This document shows positions 5,019 to 64,000 of a stretch of 64,000 nucleotides of DNA, piece after piece; within the stretch, counting starts at the first letter, position 1; each line of letters begins with the position of its first letter. The position numbers and the translations under genes were made by a program. The stretch is from Herbidospora daliensis. GTDB lineage: Bacteria; Actinomycetota; Actinomycetes; Streptosporangiales; Streptosporangiaceae. The notes under the pieces were generated by a model. The model saw nothing but the letters and a program-made list of their open reading frames with translations. It did not search any database and was not told the DNA's origin. The stretch covers positions 124,001 through 188,000 of the forward strand of contig NZ_BBXF01000004.1 of assembly GCF_001570585.1 (NCBI RefSeq), written 5' to 3'.

Positions 5019-6125
5019 TCACCGCCGGCCCGACGAAGCGTCGGCGGCCCGTTCATAACAACGCTCGAACCCTTCAAGGACCACCGGCCACGAGCATCTG
5101 ACCGGCGACGTCGACCGATTGTGCTCGGCGATCGCCCCTCGTAGCGCAGGGTCCCCCGCGAGCCGGGCCACCGCACCGGCCAGCTCGTCGAAGGTGCGCC
5201 CCAGCAGGCCTTCCTTGCCCGGGCTCACGAAATCGGCCACACCGCTCTGCGACCGTGCCACCACCGGCACCCCCGCCGCGCGCGCCTCCAGCGCGGCCAG
5301 ACCGAACGACTCCCGGGGCGCCGGGGCGACGAAGACGTCGGCCTCCGCCAGCAGCCCCCTGATCTGGTCCCGGGTGTACCTGCCCGGCATCTCGACCCAG
5401 TCGATCCGCTTCGCCTTCAGATGGCGCTCCATCTGGCCCCGTGCGGGCCCGTCGCCCACGATCGTGGCCCGCAGGGTGACGCCCCTGCGCGTTCTGGCCT
5501 TGGCGGCCTCCAGGAGCTTCAGGAGGCGCACGGGCTGCTTGCGCGGCGCCAGCCGCCCGACGGCGACCACGTGGACCTCGTCGGAGGGCACCCGGGCCGG
5601 GCCCTCGGGCCGCCAGCCCGACAGGTCGAGCCCGTTCGACACGACGTGGACGGGCGTCCGCGGCCCCGCCACCCGCCGGATGTGCCGCGCCGCCGCCTCG
5701 GAGACGGCCGTGCCGACCAGCCCCCACTCGCTCCAACTCGCGGCGTCGAGCGCGCGGTAGAGGCCGGCGGTCACCGGATCCCACATGCTGTGCACGGTCA
5801 CCACCGTGGGCAGCCCCACCCGGTGGGCGGCCAGCACCCCCATCCACGCGAACGGCGACACCGCGCCCGTGTGGACGTGGACGACGTCGGGGTTCCGCTG
5901 CGTCATGATCCGGATCAGGTGGCCCGTGCCGCGCGGGTGGACCGGCAGGTCGAACGGCATGCGCGCGGTGGTCCGGTGGACGCCCGGCAGCGGCTCCCCC
6001 GGCGTGGCGGTGACCACCTCGACGTCGTGCCCGGCCTCGCGCTGGCTCCTGATCAGGTCGGCGACCTGCACCTCGATGCCGCCCAGCCGGGGCAGGTAGC
6101 AGTCGCTCACGTGAAGGATGCGCAC
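5019..6125 (-). CDS. GT4-family glycosyltransferase
   Basis: A 368-residue GT-B fold glycosyltransferase. The N-terminus RILHVSDCYLPRLGGIEVQV is the classical GT4 acceptor-domain start. The C-terminal donor domain has VAVGRLAPRKQP, then PRESFGLAALEARAAGVPVV with the conserved EX7E-type region. It likely transfers a nucleotide-activated sugar to a lipid or cell-surface acceptor; the specificity cannot be read. The GTG at 6125 is chosen because the family motif starts there and because the upstream ATG (6185) would overlap the divergent PIG-L start. A CAGGCT box six bases before the GTG suggests a leaderless start. Transcribed divergently from the deacetylase gene. Confidence 0.85.
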   Translation of the reverse strand: MRILHVSDCYLPRLGGIEVQVADLIRSQREAGHDVEVVTATPGEPLPGVHRTTARMPFDLPVHPRGTGHLIRIMTQRNPDVVHVHTGAVSPFAWMGVLAAHRVGLPTVVTVHSMWDPVTAGLYRALDAASWSEWGLVGTAVSEAAARHIRRVAGPRTPVHVVSNGLDLSGWRPEGPARVPSDEVHVVAVGRLAPRKQPVRLLKLLEAAKARTRRGVTLRATIVGDGPARGQMERHLKAKRIDWVEMPGRYTRDQIRGLLAEADVFVAPAPRESFGLAALEARAAGVPVVARSQSGVADFVSPGKEGLLGRTFDELAGAVARLAGDPALRGAIAEHNRSTSPVRCSWPVVLEGFERCYERAADASSGRR

Positions 6126-6183
6126 CCGGTCAGCCTGACAGAGGTCCGGACCCGGCTCAAACGCGCGATCGGAGGGTGGGATC

Positions 6184-6987
6184 ATGTGTCGGGTGAAGAC
6201 AGCGGTGTTCTTTCACGCCCATCCCGACGACGAGGCGCTGCTGACGGCCGGGACCATGGCGATGCTCGCGGCCGAGGGCCACCGCGTGGTCCTGGTGGTG
6301 GCCACGGCGGGCGAGCACGGCCTGGCCGAACTCCCCCACGGCGACGAGCTCGGCGAGGCCCGCATGAACGAGCTCTACGACTCGGCCGCCCGCCTCGGCT
6401 GCGCCCGCGTGGTGCGCCTCGGCTACGCCGACTCGGGCCTGGAGGCCGGCGGCGGCGCCGAAGACCGCCCCGCCGACGCCTTCATGGACGCCGACATCGA
6501 AGAGGCAGCCACCCGCCTGGCCGCGATCCTCGACGAGGAGAAGGCCGAGCTCCTGACCATCTACGACCCTTCTGGCGGCTACGGCCACCCCGACCACGTG
6601 CAGGTCTACCGGGTCGGCACCCGCGCGGCGAAACTCGCCGCGATCCCGCCGATCCTCCTGGAGGCCACCGTCAACCGCGACCCCCTGCTGAAGGGCGTGC
6701 GGCTGGCCGCGAAGTTCTACCCCCAGCTCGACATCCGCTCGTTCGAGACCGCCTACTCCGCCTCGGCCGACATCACCCACCGGGTGAACGTCCGCAGGTG
6801 GACGTCGGTCAAGCGCCAGTCGATGGCCGCCCACGCGACCCAGGCCAGCGGCGGCGACGGCGACCGCACCCTGGCCGCCCTGCTGAAGATCCCGGCCCCG
6901 GTCTACCGCTACGTCTTCGGCACCGAGTGGTACGTCCGCCGCGACCTCCCCCCGGGCACCAAGATGACCCACCCGTTCGACGACTGA
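6184..6987 (+). CDS. PIG-L (LmbE/MshB-type) deacetylase
   Basis: A 267-residue protein with the signature FHAHPDDEAL (about residues 10-19), whose His, Asp and Asp ligate zinc, and a later SGGYGHPDHVQVYR that supplies the third ligand and catalytic groups. The family removes N-acetyl groups from sugars, as in mycothiol or GPI-like lipid synthesis. The length fits MshB-like homologues, but I cannot tell whether it is MshB, the mycothiol-conjugate amidase or a paralogue. A GTG three codons downstream is an alternative start. The divergent GT4 neighbour suggests a glycoconjugate pathway. Confidence 0.82.
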   Translation: MCRVKTAVFFHAHPDDEALLTAGTMAMLAAEGHRVVLVVATAGEHGLAELPHGDELGEARMNELYDSAARLGCARVVRLGYADSGLEAGGGAEDRPADAFMDADIEEAATRLAAILDEEKAELLTIYDPSGGYGHPDHVQVYRVGTRAAKLAAIPPILLEATVNRDPLLKGVRLAAKFYPQLDIRSFETAYSASADITHRVNVRRWTSVKRQSMAAHATQASGGDGDRTLAALLKIPAPVYRYVFGTEWYVRRDLPPGTKMTHPFDD

Positions 6988-6988
6988 C

Positions 6989-7288
6989 TCAGCCCGCCTC
7001 GCGGAGCGGCTGGAACTGAACGTCGAGACGCACTTCGAGCGCCTCGGCGAGACGTTCCAGCATGGGGATGGTGGGCATGGTGCCACCCGCCTCGAAGCGG
7101 GCGACCGCGGGCTGCTTGAGACCGGCCCGCTGCGCGAGTTCGGCCTGGGTGAGCCCGAGCTCCTCGCGGCGCCGGCGCACGGCCTCTCCCAACTCGAACC
7201 GGAGGCGGGCGGCTTCATGGGCTGCTCCGGCACCAGGACGTCCCATGATCTCGGCCCGCTTGTCGGCCCACGCCCTGCGCTCACCCAT
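6989..7288 (-). CDS. higA: XRE-family antitoxin (HigA-like)
   Basis: A 99-residue protein with a Cro/C1 helix-turn-helix in the middle (GLTQAELAQRAGLKQPAVAR, then MPTIPMLERLAEAL). It follows the RelE/ParE-type toxin on the same strand and their reading frames overlap by eight bases. Toxin-first order and overlap are characteristic of HigBA modules. The HTH protein neutralises the toxin and represses the operon. Start is the ATG at 7288; a longer reading would run through the toxin gene. Confidence 0.85.
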   Translation of the reverse strand: MGERRAWADKRAEIMGRPGAGAAHEAARLRFELGEAVRRRREELGLTQAELAQRAGLKQPAVARFEAGGTMPTIPMLERLAEALEVRLDVQFQPLREAG

Positions 7289-7631
7289 GGCCAGCACTCT
7301 CCTCCGCCGTGTGCGCCTCGGCGATACAGCGCTCCATGGCGCGCACCGCCCGCTCGATCTCACCGGGCTCGCGCATCCGCTGCTTCTTGAACACCGTGAG
7401 CAGGATGATCCTCCGGCCCGACGCGATCCAGTAGGTGATGCGCACCGCCTCGCGAGAGAGATGGAAACGGAGTTCCCGCAGCTTCCCGCGCAACTGCCTG
7501 GTGTACGGCTCTCCGAGCAGCACACCCCGCTCCGCCAGAAGATCGACGTAGAAGACGGCCGTCTCCTGATCGTCTTGGCTCAGCGAGTCGAGCCACTCGT
7601 CGATCTCGGGCTCCAGCTCCACCTCTCCCAA
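7281..7631 (-). CDS. higB: RelE/ParE-superfamily toxin (HigB-like)
   Basis: A 116-residue protein of the phage-Gp49/HigB type. It contains LAERGVLLGEPYTRQLRG, then KLRELRFHLSREAVRITYW and GRRIILLTVFKKQRMREP, the conserved core of actinobacterial mRNA interferases cutting ribosome-bound mRNA. The only in-frame start before an upstream stop is TTG at 7631 (a GTG three codons in is possible). It overlaps higA by eight bases. A 16-base inverted repeat sits immediately upstream and is the likely autoregulatory operator. Confidence 0.85.
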   Translation of the reverse strand: MGEVELEPEIDEWLDSLSQDDQETAVFYVDLLAERGVLLGEPYTRQLRGKLRELRFHLSREAVRITYWIASGRRIILLTVFKKQRMREPGEIERAVRAMERCIAEAHTAEESAGHG

Positions 7632-7634
7632 GTC

Positions 7635-7650
7635 ATAACACGGACGTTAT
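7635..7650. promoter_or_regulatory. Candidate HigBA operator
   Basis: ATAAC (7635-7639), six-base spacer, GTTAT (7646-7650). This inverted repeat abuts the TTG start of the toxin, so a bound antitoxin-toxin complex would block the promoter or ribosome access. Position and symmetry are seen; the regulatory role is inferred from how HigA antitoxins work. Confidence 0.55.
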
Positions 7651-7759
7651 AAGGGAGGCAAGGGTGCCGTCCGGCGCACGACACATCAGACTTGGGGCCC
7701 TCACCTGGTTCGTACCAGAGGATGAGCGAAGCGGTCGTGGTGCCCGGCAGACTGGGCGC

Positions 7760-8821
7760 ATGAACAGGTGGGTGCGGGTCGCCATGTCGGTCGCGTCGCT
7801 GGCGCTGGCCGCGGGGCTGATCGTCTACCTGCCCTCGATCATCGGGTCGCTCACCGGGGCGACGATGTCGTGGGGCCAGATCGGCGACCTGTTCGCCGCC
7901 GTCTCCTGGCAGATGGCCGCGCTGATGACCGTCGTGTGGCTGGCCAGCCTGCTCGCCTACACCTTCGTGCTCACCGGGTCGCTGCCCGGCCTCGGGCACA
8001 CCCAGGCTCTCACCCTGAACGCCGCCGGGAGCGCGGTCAGCAACCTGCTGCCCTTCGGCGGGGCCGCCGGGGTGGCGCTGACCATGGCGATGACCAAGGG
8101 CTGGGGCTTCCCCGTCGGGGCCATCGTCGCCTCGACGCTGGTCAGCGGGGTCTGGAACATGATCTTCCGGTTCCTGCTGCCCGCCGTCGGGATCCTGGCC
8201 CTGCTGCTGTCGGGGACCGCGTTGTCCCCCACGGTCACCAAGGCCGGGTGGGCCGCCTCCGCGTCGCTGCTGGCGCTCGTCGTGATCGTCGGGGCGGCGC
8301 TGTTCTGGGACCGGGGGGCCCACGTCATCGGGCGCGGCGCCGACCGGCTCGTGGCGCTGTCGCCGAAGAAGATCCGGCCGGCCGAGCGGTGGGCCTCCGG
8401 CGCCATCCACAAGCTGCGCGCCGACATGGCCGGGGTGGTCCGGTCGGGCTGGCTGAAGATGTCGCTCGGCATGGTGTTCTTCCTCGGCTTCCAGTGGCTG
8501 ATCCTGGCGCTCTGCATGGCCGGGACCGGCGCGTGGGTCGGGACCGCCCAGTCGATCGCGGTGTTCGCGCTGTCGCGGGTGCTGACGAGCGCGCTGGCCA
8601 CGCCCAGCGGCGCGGGGTTCATGGAGGCCGGCACCGCGCTCGCGCTGATCGGGTTCGGCGCGGGCGAGGCGCAGGCGACCGCCGCCGCGATTCTGTTCGG
8701 TTTCTGGACGTACACGATCGAGATTCCGTGGGGCGGGCTCGCCCTCGGAGGTTGGGCGATTCTTCGCAAACGCGACGGGAAGCGGGAATCGGAACCGGTC
8801 ACCCGCGAGAAAGCATCATGA
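7760..8821 (+). CDS. Flippase-like membrane protein (LPG synthase TM domain, UPF0104)
   Basis: A 353-residue integral membrane protein with about eight hydrophobic segments. The family motif region is LNAAGSAVSNLLPFGGAAGVALT, followed by SGVWNMIFRFLLPAVGI and near the C-terminus ALATPSGAGFMEAGTALAL. This is the transmembrane module found alone or fused to lysylphosphatidylglycerol synthases. Stand-alone members are called lipid or glycoconjugate flippases, mostly without experiment. ATG 7760 is chosen because the upstream in-frame extension is polar and unlike the family. CAGACT six bases before it may be a leaderless -10 box. Confidence 0.82.
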   Translation: MNRWVRVAMSVASLALAAGLIVYLPSIIGSLTGATMSWGQIGDLFAAVSWQMAALMTVVWLASLLAYTFVLTGSLPGLGHTQALTLNAAGSAVSNLLPFGGAAGVALTMAMTKGWGFPVGAIVASTLVSGVWNMIFRFLLPAVGILALLLSGTALSPTVTKAGWAASASLLALVVIVGAALFWDRGAHVIGRGADRLVALSPKKIRPAERWASGAIHKLRADMAGVVRSGWLKMSLGMVFFLGFQWLILALCMAGTGAWVGTAQSIAVFALSRVLTSALATPSGAGFMEAGTALALIGFGAGEAQATAAAILFGFWTYTIEIPWGGLALGGWAILRKRDGKRESEPVTREKAS

Positions 8822-32696: not shown

Positions 32697-32769
32697 GTGG
32701 GTATAGCTCAGTTGGCAGAGCGCCAGGTTGTGGTCCTGGATGTCGTGGGTTCAAGTCCCATTACTCACC
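32697..32769 (+). tRNA. tRNA-His (GTG)
   Basis: Full cloverleaf: acceptor GTGGGTA (32697-32703) with TACTCAC (32762-32768), D-arm, anticodon stem CCAGG (32723-32727) around TTGTGGT with anticodon GTG at 32730-32732, and the T-arm with GGTTCAAGTCC. A G at 32696 can serve as the extra G-1 opposite discriminator C. The CCA tail is not fully encoded. Confidence 0.95.
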
Positions 32770-32775
32770 CAGCGT

Positions 32776-37267: not shown

Positions 37268-38110
37268 ATGGCGAAGTCCACGAACCCGGTACCGGGCCGA
37301 TACCTCGTCGTGTTCGGGGAGGTCGAACTGCTGCGTGACCTCGACAACCCGGCGGGGTGGATGCTGCTCATGGACGGGGTGCCCCAGTCGTACGTCGACC
37401 TCGCCGACCCGACCCATCTCGACTTCGAGTACGTCCAGCTCATGGGCATCGCGATCGACTGTCTGCCCGAGGGGCCGCTCGACGTGACCCACGTGGGTGG
37501 GGGCGGGTTCACGCTGCCCCGCTACGTCGCGGCGACGCGGCCGGGCTCGCGCCAGATCGCCATCGAGCCCGACCACGCGCTCGTGCAATTGGTCAGGGAC
37601 CAGCTCGCCCTCAAGACGGTGCCCCGGCTCAAGGTGCGCACGACCGGCGGCCGGGAGGGCGTCACCACCCTCGACGACGCCTCGGCCGACCTCGTCGTCC
37701 TCGACGCCTTCTCGGGCGCGGTGATGCCGATCGAGCTGGCCACCGCCGAGTACATGGGCGACCTGGCGCGGGTCCTGCGGCCCGACGGCACGCTGCTGGT
37801 CAACGTGGCCGACGGCAAGGGGCTGCGGTTCGCCCGGCGGCTGCTGTCGACCGTGCGCGGGGTGTTCCGGCACGTGACCCTGCTGGCCGAGCCCGGCGTC
37901 CTGCGCGGACGCCGGTTCGGCAACCTGATCGTCGTCGCCTCCAACCGCGACCTGCCGCTCGACCGGCTGGTGCGGGCGGCCGCGGGCGGGCTCACGCAGG
38001 CGCGCTGCGTGGCCGGCGAGGACCTGGTGAAGTTCGTCGCGGGCGCCAAGCCCATCCACGACGGAGACCCGGTGGCGGCGCCGGTGCCGCCACCTGCGGT
38101 CTTCGGCTGA
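37268..38110 (+). CDS. Spermidine-synthase-like methyltransferase-fold protein
   Basis: A 280-residue protein with a Rossmann fold: LDVTHVGGGGFTLPRYVAA (motif I), then IAIEPDHALVQLVRDQL (motif II acidic end), DLVVLDAFSGAVMP and LRPDGTLLVNVADG. It matches the spermine/spermidine synthase superfamily (fused-MFS subtype without the MFS part). Aminopropyl transfer is not certain, since substrate residues are not conserved by eye. ATG 37268 is preferred; GTG 37265 is immediately upstream. Confidence 0.82.
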   Translation: MAKSTNPVPGRYLVVFGEVELLRDLDNPAGWMLLMDGVPQSYVDLADPTHLDFEYVQLMGIAIDCLPEGPLDVTHVGGGGFTLPRYVAATRPGSRQIAIEPDHALVQLVRDQLALKTVPRLKVRTTGGREGVTTLDDASADLVVLDAFSGAVMPIELATAEYMGDLARVLRPDGTLLVNVADGKGLRFARRLLSTVRGVFRHVTLLAEPGVLRGRRFGNLIVVASNRDLPLDRLVRAAAGGLTQARCVAGEDLVKFVAGAKPIHDGDPVAAPVPPPAVFG

Positions 38111-58308: not shown

Positions 58309-58399
58309 TCGCGAAGAATCCCCAGGTCAGCGCCCTTACCAAACGCCCTGGAAGGTACGTTGGAAGCAATGACCCTCCGAGCGTGTTTTTATGGGGCAT

Positions 58400-60058
58400 A
58401 TGGCGAATCCGGCGATCCTGACGGTGGACGACGACCCCGCGGTGTCCCGCGCGGTCTCCCGTGACCTGCGGCGGCGCTACGGCGACCGCTACCGCGTCGT
58501 GCGGGCCGACTCCGGCGAGTCGGCCCTTGAGGCGTTGCGGGAGATCAAGCTGCGCGGGGAGCAGGTCGCGGTCCTGGTGGCCGACTACCGGATGCCCCAG
58601 ATGAACGGCATCCAGTTCCTCGAAGCGGCCATGGATCTCTTTCCGCTGGCGCGGCGCATTCTTTTGACCGCCTATGCCGACACCGAGGCGGCGATCGACG
58701 CGATCAACCTGGTCGACGTCGACCACTACCTGCTGAAGCCGTGGAACCCGCCGGAGGAGAAGCTCTACCCGGTCATCGACGCGCTGCTCGACGCCTGGGT
58801 CGCCACCCCCGACCGTCCGGCGACCGAGATCCGCGTGGTCGGGCACCGGTGGTCGGCCGAGTCGTGGGCGGTGCGCGACTTCCTGGCCCGGAACCTGGTG
58901 TCCTACCGGTGGCTGCTGGCCGACGACCCCGAGGGCCGCCGCCTGCTGACCGCCGCCGGGCTGACCGAGAACGACGTGCCGCTGGTGGTGACGCCCGACG
59001 GCAAGTCGCTGGTGCAGCCGTCGGAGATCGACCTGGCCCCCCACGTGGGCCTGACGACCACGCCGGCCAGCGACTTCTACGACCTGGTGGTCGTCGGGGC
59101 CGGCCCGGCCGGGCTGGGCGCGGCGGTCTACGGGGCGTCCGAAGGGCTGCGTACCGTGCTGATCGAGCAGCGGGCCACCGGCGGGCAGGCCGGGCAGAGC
59201 AGCCGCATCGAGAACTACCTGGGCTTCCCCGACGGCGTGAGCGGCGCGCAGCTGACCGAGCGGGCCCGCAGGCAGGCGCTGAAGTTCGGCACCGAACTGC
59301 TGAGCGCCCGCGAGGCGGTCGCGCTGGAGGCGGGCGGGTCGACGCGGGTGCTGCGCTTCGACGACGGCACCTCGATCGCCGCCCACACGGTGGTGCTGGC
59401 GACCGGCGTCTCCTACCGGATGCTGCAGGCCCCCGGCCTCGACGGCTTCACCGGCCGGGGCGTCTTCTACGGCTCGGCGTCCACCGAGGCCCCTTCGTGC
59501 CTCGACCAGGACGTCTACATCGTCGGCGGCGCCAACTCGGCCGGGCAGGCGGCGGTCTACTTCTCCCGGTACGCCGCCCGCGTCCACATCCTGATCCGCG
59601 GCGACAGCCTCGAACGGTCGATGTCGAACTACCTGATCAAGCAGATCGCCGCCCACCCGACGATCCAGGTCCACCCGAACACCGAGATCTGCCAGGCCGA
59701 GGGCGACGAGCACCTCGAACGGCTGACGCTGCGCGACACCCGCACCGGTCAGATCCGGGTGGCCGACACGACGTGGTGCTTCATCTTCATCGGCGCCGAG
59801 CCCCGCACCGCCTGGCTCGACTCCGTCGTCCAGCGTGACCAGCACGGCTTCGTGCTGACCGGCCCCGACCTGCTGAGCGGCGGGCAGCGGCCCGCCGGGT
59901 GGGCGCTGCCGCGCGACCCCTATCACCTGGAGAGCAGCATGCCCGGCGTCTTCGCGGCGGGCGACGTGCGCTCCGAATCGGTCAAACGCGTCGCCTCCGC
60001 CGTGGGCGAGGGCGCCATGGCCGTCTCCCTCATCCACCGTTATCTGGAGGCGCAATGA
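58400..60058 (+). CDS. Receiver domain fused to glutaredoxin-like and thioredoxin-reductase-like flavoprotein
   Basis: A 552-residue fusion of a family annotated as fused response regulator/thioredoxin-disulfide reductase. The receiver domain (about 1-125) has VDDDPAVSRAV, the phosphoacceptor Asp in VADYRMPQMNG (about 61) and Lys in YLLKPWNPP. A glutaredoxin-like segment (about 135-205, VVGHRWSAESWAVRDFL) lacks Cys. The flavoprotein has VVGAGPAGLGAAV (FAD, about 232), VYIVGGANSAGQAAV (NAD(P)H, about 374) and VFAAGDVRSESVKR. Instead of the reductase CxxC it has only one Cys (APSCLDQ, about 367), so disulfide reduction is questionable. The ATG at 58391 is an alternative start. It overlaps the histidine kinase gene (ATGA). 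Confidence 0.85.
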   Translation: MANPAILTVDDDPAVSRAVSRDLRRRYGDRYRVVRADSGESALEALREIKLRGEQVAVLVADYRMPQMNGIQFLEAAMDLFPLARRILLTAYADTEAAIDAINLVDVDHYLLKPWNPPEEKLYPVIDALLDAWVATPDRPATEIRVVGHRWSAESWAVRDFLARNLVSYRWLLADDPEGRRLLTAAGLTENDVPLVVTPDGKSLVQPSEIDLAPHVGLTTTPASDFYDLVVVGAGPAGLGAAVYGASEGLRTVLIEQRATGGQAGQSSRIENYLGFPDGVSGAQLTERARRQALKFGTELLSAREAVALEAGGSTRVLRFDDGTSIAAHTVVLATGVSYRMLQAPGLDGFTGRGVFYGSASTEAPSCLDQDVYIVGGANSAGQAAVYFSRYAARVHILIRGDSLERSMSNYLIKQIAAHPTIQVHPNTEICQAEGDEHLERLTLRDTRTGQIRVADTTWCFIFIGAEPRTAWLDSVVQRDQHGFVLTGPDLLSGGQRPAGWALPRDPYHLESSMPGVFAAGDVRSESVKRVASAVGEGAMAVSLIHRYLEAQ

Positions 60059-61470
60059 GCGACCTTCTGACCCCGGACGATCTCCGCGGCCTGTTCCTCT
60101 TCGAGTCGCTCAACGACGAGCAGCTCCGGCTGATCGCCGACTGCGGCGTCGTGGTCCGCTACTCCGCCGGCTCGCTCGTGTACGAGGAGGGCGGCCCCGC
60201 GACCTGCTTCGTCGTCCTCCTCGACGGCACGGTCACGCTGAGCCGGCGCGTGCGCGGCGACGACGTCGAGTTCCTCCGCAGCGACCAGCGCGGCGCCTAC
60301 GGCGGGGCGACCCAGGCCTACATGGGCACGCCGGGCGAGCAGACGTACAACAACTCGATGCTCGCGCTGACCGACGTGACCATGTACGAGATCCCGGCCG
60401 ACTCCTTCGCCCAGTGGACCCGCTCGTGGTTCCCGATGGCGATGCACCTGCTGGAGGGCCTGTTCGTCGGCATGCAGACCACGCAGACCGTGGTCGGGGA
60501 GCGCGAGCGGCTGCTCGCCCTGGGCGCGTTGTCGGCGGGGCTGACCCACGAGCTGAACAACCCGGCCGCCGCGGCGGTCCGGGCCACCTCGATCCTGCGC
60601 GAACGCGTGGCCGGCATGCGCCACAAGCTGGGCATGATCGCCGACGGGAAGATCGACGGCGGCCGTCTGCACAAGCTGGTCGAGCTGCAGGAGATCGCGG
60701 TCAAGCGGGCCGCCTCGACGCCCGAGTTGTCGGCCCTGCAGACCTCCGACGCCGAGAGCGAGCTGGAGGACTGGCTCGACGACCACGACATCGCCGGGTC
60801 GTGGGACATCGCGCCCACCCTGGTCGCGGGCGGGATCGACACCGAGTGGCTGCAGACCGTCGAGTCGTGCGTCGGCGAGGGCAACCTCGAAGGGGCGATC
60901 CGGTGGCTGACGTACACCATAGACACCGAGCTGCTGATGGACGAGATCGACGACGCCGTCACCCGCATCTCGGGCCTGGTCTCGGCCGCCAAGCAGTACT
61001 CCCAGCTCGACCGCGCCCCGCACCAGACGGTCGACGTGCACGACCTGCTCGACGCGACGCTGACCATGCTCCAGGCGAAGATCCCCGAAGGGGTGCGCCT
61101 GGTGAAGAACTACGACCGCGCGCTGCCGCCCATCCCGGCCTACGCCGCCGAGCTGAACCAGGTGTGGACCAACCTGATCGACAACGCGATCGGCGCCATG
61201 GACGGCTCCGGCACGCTGACGATCTCGACCTGCCGCGACGGCGACAACGTGGCCGTCGACGTCGAGGACACCGGCCACGGCATCCCGCCGGAGGTCCGCC
61301 CGCACATCTTCGAACCCTTCTTCACCACCAAGGCGGTCGGCGAGGGGACGGGGCTGGGCCTCGACATCTCCTACCGGATCGTGGTGAAGAAGCACCACGG
61401 CGACATCCGGGTCGACTCGCAGCCGGGGCGCACCAACTTCCGGGTCCTGCTGCCGCTGGAAGACGTTTGA
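60055..61470 (+). CDS. Histidine kinase with cyclic-nucleotide-binding domain
   Basis: A 471-residue soluble sensor kinase. An N-terminal cNMP-binding-like beta-roll (about 10-125, LFESLNDEQLRLIADCGVVV, AGSLVYEEGGPATCFVVLLD) is followed by the H-box LSAGLTHELNNPAAAAV (about 165) and catalytic boxes: LNQVWTNLIDNAIGAM (N), VEDTGHGIPPEV (G1) and EGTGLGLDISYRI (G2). No membrane segment is present. It overlaps the receiver-fusion gene by four bases, so the receiver domain there is its likely partner. The beta-roll may bind cAMP, cGMP, or another ligand. Confidence 0.9.
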   Translation: MSDLLTPDDLRGLFLFESLNDEQLRLIADCGVVVRYSAGSLVYEEGGPATCFVVLLDGTVTLSRRVRGDDVEFLRSDQRGAYGGATQAYMGTPGEQTYNNSMLALTDVTMYEIPADSFAQWTRSWFPMAMHLLEGLFVGMQTTQTVVGERERLLALGALSAGLTHELNNPAAAAVRATSILRERVAGMRHKLGMIADGKIDGGRLHKLVELQEIAVKRAASTPELSALQTSDAESELEDWLDDHDIAGSWDIAPTLVAGGIDTEWLQTVESCVGEGNLEGAIRWLTYTIDTELLMDEIDDAVTRISGLVSAAKQYSQLDRAPHQTVDVHDLLDATLTMLQAKIPEGVRLVKNYDRALPPIPAYAAELNQVWTNLIDNAIGAMDGSGTLTISTCRDGDNVAVDVEDTGHGIPPEVRPHIFEPFFTTKAVGEGTGLGLDISYRIVVKKHHGDIRVDSQPGRTNFRVLLPLEDV

Positions 61471-63150
61471 TCAGTCGGTGTCGATCGCGGCCTCAGCGAT
61501 GAAGTAGGGCTCGATGACGGATGTTATCGACTCAATGAACCGGCGTTCGGCCTGAGCCAGGTCGTTGGCGCGGGTCTTGACGAAGGCCTCGTCGTCTCCG
61601 GAGGCGAGATGCCGCAACGCCTCCGGAGAGATGCCCACTTGGGCTCCGTCGAGGATCGCGTTCCGCACGCTCACACCGATAGGGGTTTCGAGCATGACGC
61701 GGTTGCCCGGGCTCGACCCGTTCGGCAGACCCACGCGGTTGGACACCCGCCGAAAGGCATTGCCCTCAAGCGCCCTGATCTGGTCGACGGCCCAAGCGTG
61801 GCCGTCGGGACGCCTCCGCAACTCCCACAAGATGTAGGCGCGAACCCGGGCGCTGCGCATGTCGAACTTCTCCGGAAACGGCCTGGCTCGCTGGTCGGTG
61901 AAGTCAAACATGCCCTGTCCGCCGACGAAATCAGACGGTGACTTCACCTCCGTCGCCAGATCGACCATGTCCCTGATCGACTGGCGGCTGCTAGAGGAGT
62001 TGATGCTCGCGAAGAATCCGCTCCACGAGGTGATCCAGAACCAGCGTTCCAGGGTGTCCACCTGCTCGGCGGATGGCGCCGGGCGAAGGTGGAAAAACAG
62101 GGCCAGCAGAATGAGCTGGTTGTTGTACGGCACCAGCCGCGCCAGCGGCGCCCCGATCCGGTCGCGTAGAAATGCCACCGCCAAGGTCAGCGCTCTGTCC
62201 ATCTGAGCGACCGCACGGGAGACCCGTCCTTCCAGCCGTCGGGCCAGAACGTCCCACCGGGCTCCGGTGACCTCCGTTTCCCCGGCTACCGCCAGCACTG
62301 CCCGGAAAGCGGCGGTGGAATCGACCTGTCCGAACCCTTCGGCGGCGATGCGTTCCAAGACCGTCGCAATCCCGTCGGCCAGGCTTTCCTCTTCGCCGCC
62401 CTTGTAGGTGAGCGCAGAGACCATCTGGTCGGGGGTCATCGACTGGCCCTTGCTGTTGATCCGGGCGAAAACCTCAACGGCCTGGGCCAGAGTGCCGCCC
62501 AACAGGGTAACCACGGAGACCTTGTAGGACTTGATGCGCTGGGCGACGCGCTCGGCCTCCTCGACGAGGTCATCTGACCGCTCCCCGTGGCTCGAACTGT
62601 GCATGAGTTTGCGTGCGTAGGCGAGGAAATCGAGGGTCTTCAAAACCGACCGGACCGGCAGGTAGTTGGCCGGTGGCGGGCCGCCCTGCTTCCAATGGGC
62701 GTAGCGGTTGCCATGGGAGTCGTTGGATCCCAGCACCCGGTAGACGCGCCAGATCCATTCGTTCTCAGCGCCCAGTTCGACATAGTCGGGGCGGTAGAGG
62801 CAGCCGTAGAGGGTCGACAGGCGCTGATGACCGTCAAGGATATACGTGGCGGTCCGGCCGGCCGGGGGGTCGGGAACGGTCAGTCCGCCGACCTCGCCGA
62901 GGCTTTCGAGCGGCGAGGGCGTCTCCCACAGCAGCATGCTGCCGATGGGATAGCCGCGTTCGATGCTGTCGAAGAGGTCGAGCATCTGATCGGGCCGCCA
63001 GACGAACGGGCGCTGGAATTTCGGCACCCTAAGGCGGCCGTCGCTCACGAGGCGCAAATAGTCTTCGAGAAGGCTTACGTCGGGGCGGACACCGATCTCC
63101 CCCTGCTCCGTCTTAAGTTCCGCCGGAGCGTCCAGCCCTGACTCTTCCAT
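61471..63150 (-). CDS. DUF262 domain protein (GmrS/SspE-type), candidate defence nuclease/NTPase
   Basis: A 559-residue protein. The DUF262 ParB-like domain has VPKFQRPFVWRPDQMLDLFD (about 43) and the NTP-linked motif ILDGHQRLSTLYG (about 102), here DGHQR in place of the usual DGQQR. The long helical middle (about 190-420) and the C-terminal SSPGNRVMLETPIGVSVRNA segment recall a degenerate DUF1524/HNH end, without the His of the HNH site. DUF262 proteins act in type IV restriction (GmrSD) and phosphorothioate-based defence (SspE). The gene sits ten bases after the TOPRIM-like gene, and AGGAAG precedes its ATG. The base composition is lower in GC than that of its neighbours. Confidence 0.85.
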   Translation of the reverse strand: MEESGLDAPAELKTEQGEIGVRPDVSLLEDYLRLVSDGRLRVPKFQRPFVWRPDQMLDLFDSIERGYPIGSMLLWETPSPLESLGEVGGLTVPDPPAGRTATYILDGHQRLSTLYGCLYRPDYVELGAENEWIWRVYRVLGSNDSHGNRYAHWKQGGPPPANYLPVRSVLKTLDFLAYARKLMHSSSHGERSDDLVEEAERVAQRIKSYKVSVVTLLGGTLAQAVEVFARINSKGQSMTPDQMVSALTYKGGEEESLADGIATVLERIAAEGFGQVDSTAAFRAVLAVAGETEVTGARWDVLARRLEGRVSRAVAQMDRALTLAVAFLRDRIGAPLARLVPYNNQLILLALFFHLRPAPSAEQVDTLERWFWITSWSGFFASINSSSSRQSIRDMVDLATEVKSPSDFVGGQGMFDFTDQRARPFPEKFDMRSARVRAYILWELRRRPDGHAWAVDQIRALEGNAFRRVSNRVGLPNGSSPGNRVMLETPIGVSVRNAILDGAQVGISPEALRHLASGDDEAFVKTRANDLAQAERRFIESITSVIEPYFIAEAAIDTD

Positions 63151-63160
63151 GTCCCGCTTC

Positions 63161-64000
63161 CTAGATGATCGTCTGTAACAGTTCGAGCATTAACCGCAGG
63201 TCAGCAGTCGCTTCGGGACCGAGATCGGCCTCGGTCAGCGCACCCGCTTCGGCCAGTCGCTCGAACAGAGCACACAGTCCTTCGCCGAACCCCTGGCCCA
63301 AGCCCTCTATCACCTTAGGCTCCAGCGAGTCGTAGAGATCCACCTGCTCGGGCAGAACGGCGAATCGCTTCTCCTTTCCGTTCCAGAACGCCTTCTTGAC
63401 GTCGAGATGCGCCCGCTGATCGGGAGTGAGCCGCTTTAGGTGCCCCAGCTTCTTCGATTTCTCCGAAGGAGCCCCGCTGCTAGCCGCCAGCACCTTCGTC
63501 GGCAGGTAGTTCTCCGCCTCACGGAACTGCAGCAGGTGGCCCGGCACGCCCTCTTTGATCAGCGTCGCGATCTTGCCCTCGTGCTTGGAGGCCCCGTCGG
63601 GCGTGAGCCGATCGCTGTCAAGGACGAAGGTCACCCGGAACAGCCTTCTGAATCGCCCCCGCTCAGCTCGCACGATCTTGGCCAGTTCACCGCTCCCGCC
63701 GCCTTGGGAGAACTCCAGCCAGCCCATCCGATGGGCGTCGAGCAGGCGGCGATCCCCCAAGATGTGCGCCACGGCCACGACAAAACACCGATCGCTTTCC
63801 TGGTTCTCCACGACGACTTTCGCGGGGCGAGCGAGATCGTGCGTATGATCGGAAAGACTGTCGCGCGTGATCACCACTGCCGCAGGCCCAGACCACGTGG
63901 CGCTGACCATCGCCTTGCGGGCCATCAACTCGTATGTCTTGGCCATCTTCGGCACATGGGACTGGAAGTAGCCTTCGATCGCTCCGACGTCGCGGATGTC
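63161..64000 (-). CDS. TOPRIM/DUF4435-like protein, cut by window end
   Basis: The frame is open through the right edge, so the N-terminus lies outside; at least 279 residues are visible. Motifs in order are VVVENQESDRCFVVAVAHIL (E and DxxF), LEFSQGGGSGELAKIV (GGxxG-like), FVLDSDRLTPDG (DxD metal site) and LLQFREAENYLPT (ExYLP). Together they fit a TOPRIM fold of the DUF4435/OLD-nuclease kind. A fused N-terminal domain cannot be seen. It is likely the first gene in an operon with the DUF262 gene and lies in the lower-GC right end. TOPRIM assignment is by motif pattern. Confidence 0.65.
   Translation of the reverse strand, partial: DIRDVGAIEGYFQSHVPKMAKTYELMARKAMVSATWSGPAAVVITRDSLSDHTHDLARPAKVVVENQESDRCFVVAVAHILGDRRLLDAHRMGWLEFSQGGGSGELAKIVRAERGRFRRLFRVTFVLDSDRLTPDGASKHEGKIATLIKEGVPGHLLQFREAENYLPTKVLAASSGAPSEKSKKLGHLKRLTPDQRAHLDVKKAFWNGKEKRFAVLPEQVDLYDSLEPKVIEGLGQGFGEGLCALFERLAEAGALTEADLGPEATADLRLMLELLQTII

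Follow-up and report, generated by a model that had tools for sequence, protein, structure and literature searches.

A complete, acquired three-gene cassette of the defence candidate PDC-M55 in Herbidospora daliensis

The window analysed here is a 64,000-nucleotide stretch of the 8.5 Mb genome of Herbidospora daliensis (contig NZ_BBXF01000004.1, positions 124,001 to 188,000; G000:C4:124001-188000 in our genome set). Its right edge cuts through a three-gene operon on the minus strand, and this locus is a complete, acquired member of PDC-M55, a listed defence candidate. With the sequence beyond the right edge included, the genes stand in the order A-B-C: A encodes an OLD-type ATP-binding cassette (ABC) ATPase, B a TOPRIM-like protein that is a probable nuclease effector, and C a DUF262 (ParB/Srx-like NTPase) protein that is a probable sensor or switch. 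An earlier sequence-only reading of the window had seen B and C and had described them as a two-gene module. Extending the contig rightward, the check it proposed, completed B and revealed gene A upstream, outside the window; a two-gene system is ruled out because A overlaps B, and the reported pair is the part of a trio that lies at the window's right edge.

On the extended locus (L003, where window position = L003 + 59999), all three genes lie on the minus strand. Gene A occupies L003 4100-5290 (window 64099-65289; 396 amino acids, aa), gene B L003 3162-4103 (start near window 64102; 313 aa, of which the in-window 3' part, 63161-64000, encodes 279), and gene C L003 1472-3151 (window 61471-63150; 559 aa). 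A and B overlap by 4 bp and the spacing between B and C is 10 bp, in line with the close pairing first described. C converges, as also described, on a plus-strand gene for a kinase with cyclic nucleotide monophosphate (cNMP)-binding and HATPase domains (60055-61470, identified by Pfam matches); C abuts the kinase stop codon on the opposite strand with zero gap, and this gene forms the left border of the cassette, outside the system.

Each protein matched its PDC-M55 model over nearly the whole model length: A with 543 bits (model positions 1-417 of 421), B with 363 bits (positions 1-315 of 315; residues 1-313) and C with 775 bits (positions 2-554 of 554; residues 13-559). The assignment rests on the hidden Markov model (HMM) library of PADLOC-DB 2.0.0, that is, on model matches, and the comparison brought up no difference from the candidate. 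The earlier view was that no named system pairs these proteins, and it was to be abandoned if PADLOC or DefenseFinder already listed them; PADLOC does list the trio, and an undescribed system is thereby ruled out. PDC systems are reported, in the available text of three papers, to be unpublished candidates obtained by 'guilt-by-embedding' and mostly untested (PMC11811056, PMC12988326, PMC10855318). The literature searched yielded no paper that uses the name 'PDC-M55' and none that treats DUF262 together with DUF4435. With this locus the unnamed pair becomes a complete, defined unit of three genes within a database candidate, one that joins two widespread defence parts, the OLD-ATPase/TOPRIM combination and DUF262.

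That the trio was gained as one cassette is well supported. The inserted cassette, to which no strand is assigned, extends from window 61466 to about 65391 (L003:1467-5392, 3926 bp; in-window part 61466..64000), its limits being the ends of the congener alignments, and its coding content is A, B and C only. Both flanks were kept in six of six congeners with the cassette missing between them; flank DNA identity was 90-97% on the kinase side and 79-95% in the matching parts of the other side. The gap between the aligned flanks measured 63 bp in G443, 64 in G506, 98 in G494, 122 in G424, 157 in G496 and 200 in G492. The exact borders are those given by G443 and G506; the right flank of the remaining four genomes aligns from about L003:5484-5511. 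A profile search of the other six genomes of the genus found no match to B. The G+C content of the cassette was 63.3%, as compared with a mean of 71.4% (standard deviation 1.5, minimum 66.5%) for same-length slices of window 1-61465, and G+C at third codon positions was 0.79-0.82 in A, B and C, as compared with 0.95 and 0.975 in the two genes adjoining the cassette. The lower GC content and the acquisition that the sequence-only reading had proposed are therefore both borne out. No integrase was found in the cassette, no word of 9 or more bases was shared, direct or inverted, between L003:1401-1530 and L003:5291-5480 at its borders, and a promoter and terminator scan gave no excess over shuffles. 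The congeners lacking the cassette provide natural empty-site controls.

The surroundings of the site were also surveyed. On the kinase side, window 58391-61470 carries a response-regulator/thioredoxin-reductase fusion gene followed by the cNMP-binding/HATPase kinase gene, with 90-97% DNA identity in six of six congeners. On the other side, two similar small proteins (L003:5311-6060 and 7397-8140), exported-looking by eye, flank a gene for an extracytoplasmic function (ECF) sigma factor (L003:6045-6587) and a further gene. The gene at L003:7397-8140 cross-matches the site of the L003:5311-6060 gene in congeners at 67-71% DNA identity. The sigma-factor segment (L003 about 6017-7361) is missing here in G496 and G492, which carry a relative on another contig (81-82% identity); the site has therefore been rearranged more than once in the genus. 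The window also contains tRNA-His (32697-32770) and tRNA-Leu (38017-38107) genes, neither close to the cassette.

The trio is patchily distributed but constant in composition. The B search and the C search each covered 297 genomes of the order, with at most seven candidates scored per genome for B and four for C; their counts are therefore lower bounds. Profile matches to B were found in at least 23 genomes, 21 of them strong (293-442 bits) and two weak (21 and 23 bits), and the contiguous order A-B-C was observed at all 21 strong loci (our own and 20 of 20 others). Matches to C at E<=1e-40 occurred in at least 53 genomes, and their scores split into two groups: 19 places reached 599.9 bits or higher, and no other exceeded 294 bits. 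These 19 are the C genes of all the 21 trio loci except two, which carry a short C. A scan of public genomes with C turned up 11 loci (Planomonospora, two Actinomadura, Lentzea, Dactylosporangium, Streptomyces, Frankia, Micromonospora, two Sorangium and Agreia), all 11 with A and B in the same order; three of these (L005-L007) are also among the 21 loci of the order. This constant gene order rules out a chance pairing of the genes, and the co-occurrence that the sequence-only reading had asked for was thus found. The alignment, distance, tail and 28-locus counts below leave out L087-L089 (the same genomes as L005-L007); L104, with broken frames, is excluded from residue counts and distances, and Leclercia from the 29-locus counts. 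C proteins below 500 bits, namely the short forms at L097 and L102 and the DUF262 proteins that stand alone at L047-L054, do not enter the residue, distance and tail counts for C.

Divergent copies of the trio were located on two conjugative plasmids of Leclercia adecarboxylata. The copy on an IncFII plasmid keeps the order A-B-C beside a tyrosine integrase gene, and its proteins had HMM scores of 271 (A), 163 (B) and 231 (C), and scores of 248, 142 and 218 against the PDC-M55 models. In a Leclercia record (NZ_MH909329.1, 101537-103252) the B match is split in two, and the annotation places an IS1B element between the halves of the match. No DNA of the Leclercia trio was found in the E. coli genomes searched; no relative of B was found in phage records, and none was confirmed in viral contigs, where a single peptide pattern could be used. 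Over 27 loci, pairwise distances were strongly correlated (A-B 0.92, A-C 0.94, B-C 0.89; 0 of 2000 permutations as high). This correlated divergence shows that the trio stays together; it is not proof of protein binding, because joint descent also predicts it. In L104 the reading frames of A and C are broken, apparently by decay or by an error of sequencing, although its C end retains the tail described below. Two genomes from a single genus (L097 and L102) carry a short C of 241 and 256 aa with A and B frames present; the short form consists of the DUF262 domain alone, and no remnant was found downstream. The H. daliensis genome itself has a second, longer DUF262 gene (about 780 aa; L054, G000:C1:528159-528428), with no A or B in the surrounding 16 kb.

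On sequence, A is shown to be an OLD-family ABC ATPase. Its Pfam matches are AAA_15 (E 7e-21, 75.6 bits), AAA_21 (E 5e-12, 47.1 bits) and DUF3696 (E 9e-9), and a search with its profile matched about 100 positions of an OLD protein of solved structure, 6P74 (E 2e-11). Residues G35, K36, E287, P289, E290 and H321 are invariant in 29 loci; we take G35 and K36 to belong to Walker A and the others to the Walker B/EPE-type and H-loop motifs.

On sequence and model, C is shown to be a DUF262 NTPase with no predicted nuclease of its own. Residues 34-246 match DUF262/GmrSD_N (PF03235) with E 3.2e-24 and 86.6 bits (cut-off 33.2). The nucleotide-site motif ILDGHQR (residues 104-110; 62821..62841, minus strand), read from the translation and its conservation, is of a class described for DUF262 in the available text of PMC10952713; D106, G107, Q109 and R110 are invariant in 27 full-length C proteins. 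No DUF1524 match was found at E<=1 with Pfam and the aligned orthologues share no invariant His in the C-terminal half of C; therefore no HNH nuclease is visible, as the sequence-only reading had also judged. The C profile finds BrxU (7P9K) at E 3.7e-14, and the C model matched BrxU in Foldseek with E 1.2e-9 and probability 1.00, to a TM-score of only 0.34, and SspE with E 3.4e-4.

The end of C is conserved in its own right. The stop codon and last seven codons (EAAIDTD) occupy 61471..61494 on the minus strand, and a terminus of the form (I/V)D(T/V/A) followed by 1-3 residues was found in 26 of 27 full-length C proteins, as compared with 2 of the 374 control genes taken from these loci (399 genes minus 25 ending in the C tail). 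Residues 546-559 of the model have a predicted local distance difference test (pLDDT) score below 50; such very low confidence is typical of disordered tails, and the segment, probably disordered, is therefore plausible as a binding peptide. The tail is absent from the Agreia and Leclercia copies and from the short C forms. We met no mention of the tail or of the short form in the literature, where no search was aimed at them; together they offer direct hypotheses for how the parts communicate.

Protein B is likely a TOPRIM-type metal-dependent nuclease, judging from its conserved residues and their placement on a predicted structure. Ten residues are invariant in 29 loci (E99, D104, G135, G136, R156, D162, D164, R194, E197 and Y199), and the same residues are found in Leclercia. 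The E, DxD and ExYLP motifs seen at the outset are real, with E99, D162, D164, E197 and Y199 kept in 29 of 29 orthologues. TOPRIM domains carry a Glu after strand 1 and a DxD after strand 3 of their beta-alpha repeat. For the Planomonospora orthologue (48% identical), the AlphaFold2 model (pLDDT 91.7, predicted template-modelling score 0.89) has strands at 99-103, 134-138, 162-166 and 192-195 in its own numbering, alternating with helices in the order beta-alpha-beta-alpha-beta-alpha-beta; Glu104 follows strand 1, DSD 167-169 strand 3 and REAENY 199-204 strand 4. The comparison concerns the order of elements only, not the order of strands in the sheet. The top Foldseek match of this model among the viral structures of BFVD was an RloB-like protein (probability 0.82, E 0.08), and retron-Eco2 and GajA were among weak matches in the PDB. 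The further claim that B is DUF4435-like fails at the level of sequence: none of 12 orthologues has a PF14491 match at E<=10, a PF14491 search of 118 genomes of the class gave 0 matches, and the Leclercia and L046 B proteins have no Pfam match at E<=10.

At some loci outside H. daliensis the trio has defence genes for neighbours. Up to four predicted genes on each side of 28 other loci (207 script-predicted neighbours) were scanned with PADLOC; among the genes found were those of BREX and DISARM, one or the other of which lay within four predicted genes at at least 6 of the 28, a count made without a control set. Of 20 neighbours among the 207 that were scanned singly, eight hit models of BREX or DISARM; the other 12 had no hit to any PADLOC model at E<=1e-20. 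L006 has PglZ and BrxC genes near the trio, L007 has PglZ and BrxHI genes, with 21 bp between the BrxHI gene and A, and near the others lie PglW (L012), DrmA and DrmB (L098), DrmA (L099) and DrmMI (L106). In our own genome, three A-side genes were scanned with PADLOC; apart from one regulator with generic helix-turn-helix matches, no defence gene was found among them. According to a 2026 survey, OLD-ABC modules, PARIS-like ones among them, act as backup effectors within BREX loci (PMC12839542), and the position of PDC-M55 beside BREX and DISARM would fit this theme; in the available text of the survey, no DUF262/ParB protein is named as a partner of OLD-ABC/TOPRIM modules.

We favour, with slightly better than even confidence, a reading in which this complete PDC-M55 cassette would use C and A to sense infection and B as its nuclease effector. 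In the uninfected cell A would hold B inactive, as AriA holds AriB in PARIS, where the ATPase is reported to sequester the TOPRIM tRNase until a phage protein is sensed (PMC12409363, in part). C, through its nucleotide site, would report a cue from the phage, the most plausible ones being phage DNA that is modified or marked in some other way and an anti-restriction activity of the phage; the DUF262 proteins GmrSD, BrxU and SspE are described as acting on modified DNA with use of nucleoside triphosphate (NTP) (PMC10952713, in part). ATP turnover by A might then free or switch on B, which would cut nucleic acid (tRNA or DNA) so that the infection is aborted, and the conserved tail of C may be a docking peptide for a partner. 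The suggestion that the TOPRIM partner rather than the DUF262 protein supplies the nuclease accords with this reading, B being the likely nuclease of a conserved, acquired, defence-type unit.

Several results weigh against the reading just given. The role of each protein is drawn from its relatives, and no experiment with a PDC-M55 member turned up in the literature searched. The model of C has a moderate quality (pLDDT 75.4) and superposes poorly on BrxU; only one column of A or B, a conservative one (L229 of A), changes when C has no tail, with no clear tracking; and the two genomes with a C of about 250 aa indicate that a full C is not always required. For B, Foldseek gave no match at E<=0.001 in either library, a sequence search of the PDB gave no meaningful match, and Pfam assigned no family, the 12 orthologues producing two stray matches of one member each (E 0.06 and 0.10), to a Rossmann-fold oxidoreductase family and to DprA. 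With hhalign, B scored 20.3 against an RloB set (3 sequences first, then 9) and 20.9 against a set of OLD TOPRIM domains (5 sequences), both of which we take to be accepted TOPRIM proteins, as compared with 21.0 for the best unrelated control. The hhalign controls were 150 single proteins from the same loci (13 of them B itself, 137 unrelated) and the positive control, RloB against OLD, reached only 24.4; the test is of little power because of these single-protein controls and the weak positive control. In the alignment of B with RloB, which spans 83 columns, the E and DxD motifs do line up. Of the original TOPRIM claim, then, the fold stands as likely from the placement of the motifs on the model, while a statistically significant database match is missing.

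The absence of a significant fold or sequence match to known TOPRIM proteins, along with the two stray Pfam matches, would also suit an account in which B is no active nuclease but a Rossmann-like fold with acidic motifs, the system working by NTP depletion or blocking through A and C. We think this quite improbable: E, DxD and a further E are invariant over 29 loci and kept in Leclercia, and on a confident model the acidic residues are placed as in TOPRIM. Less easily set aside, though still unlikely in our judgement, is a direct restriction complex, in which C would recognise modified phage DNA, as in type IV GmrSD and BrxU, and load A and B to cut it with no cell suicide. The resemblance of C to BrxU by sequence and model and the reported action of its DUF262 relatives on modified DNA argue for such a complex, as does the report that OLD and Gabija TOPRIMs cut DNA (PMC10568477, in part); C, however, lacks the HNH domain that cuts in GmrSD and BrxU, and PARIS, the nearest system in architecture to encode its ATPase and TOPRIM separately, is described as acting on tRNA (PMC12409363). 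That the operon is not for defence at all, but a mobile regulatory or housekeeping unit, we regard as very improbable. The literature searched held no phage data and the flanking genes scanned in our own genome are ordinary, but the trio is patchy (at least 21 strong loci in 297 genomes), is absent from this site in six of six congeners and low in GC, has neighbours in defence loci elsewhere, and is listed by PADLOC as a candidate.

A bolder form of the favoured reading, in which C and A sense and B cuts, can be put forward as a tentative idea that we think unlikely. PDC-M55 might represent a new split-OLD class in which a nuclease-less DUF262 NTPase, and not the ATPase alone, supplies the phage signal, so that sensing of the GmrSD or Menshen kind is combined with the sequester-and-release logic of PARIS. 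The C-terminal peptide would then physically hold or release the complex, and the system might guard a resident BREX or DISARM against phage anti-restriction.

Comparison with named systems places PDC-M55 near several without making it a member of any. Gabija differs in having ATPase and TOPRIM in one chain, with a UvrD-like GajB, whereas PDC-M55 has separate A and B and a DUF262 third protein; this architecture rules out membership. The RloA/RloB pair is similar in that the gene after its ATPase gene has 'VEGE...DxD...FExW' motifs, and the top BFVD match of B was RloB-like; however, no sequence match between B and RloB is supported, and no DUF262 gene is annotated in the annotated 3.5-kb RloB stretches (L139, L140 and L142). 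In L139, a Rhodococcus plasmid, the ATPase/RloB pair adjoins a Fic/VbhA toxin-antitoxin pair and a MobF relaxase gene. With GmrSD, BrxU and SspE, C shares a DUF262 N-terminal domain with the DG(H/Q)QR motif, and it resembles BrxU; unlike them it has no DUF1524/HNH nuclease and has constant ATPase and B partners, and the lack of HNH in C rules out membership of GmrSD type IV restriction.

PDC-M55 resembles PARIS in that a gene for an OLD-type ATPase precedes a separate one encoding a TOPRIM-type protein. The sequence-only reading had set PARIS apart by its ATPase partner, a contrast that fails because an OLD-type ATPase gene sits directly upstream of B. Protein A passes the PARIS ATPase cut-offs of 32 for AAA_15 and 27 for AAA_21 given in the available text of PMC9122126, with its 75.6 and 47.1 bits. 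The differences are that B has no DUF4435 (PF14491) match, which rules out PARIS membership, that a DUF262 gene stands third at all PDC-M55 trio loci examined, and that A scores only 76 bits against AriA as compared with 543 for PDC-M55A.

By parts list the nearest named system is Menshen, to which we take the Nsn models to belong. Both have a DUF262 protein, an OLD-type ATPase and a third protein, and the second-best PADLOC model of A is NsnB (137 bits, positions 5-343 of 345, as compared with 543 for PDC-M55A). For C, NsnA scores 30.1 bits, behind PDC-M55C (775) and HEC-05 (64). The order at the single comparison locus (L063) is NsnA-NsnB-NsnC, whereas PDC-M55 has ATPase-B-DUF262. Membership is ruled out by the absence of any NsnC match, at E<=1 for the in-window part of B and for the Leclercia and L046 B proteins, and at E<=0.1 for the whole of B. 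If the NsnC slot of Menshen holds a TOPRIM protein, PDC-M55 would be closer to Menshen than the models scored it here.

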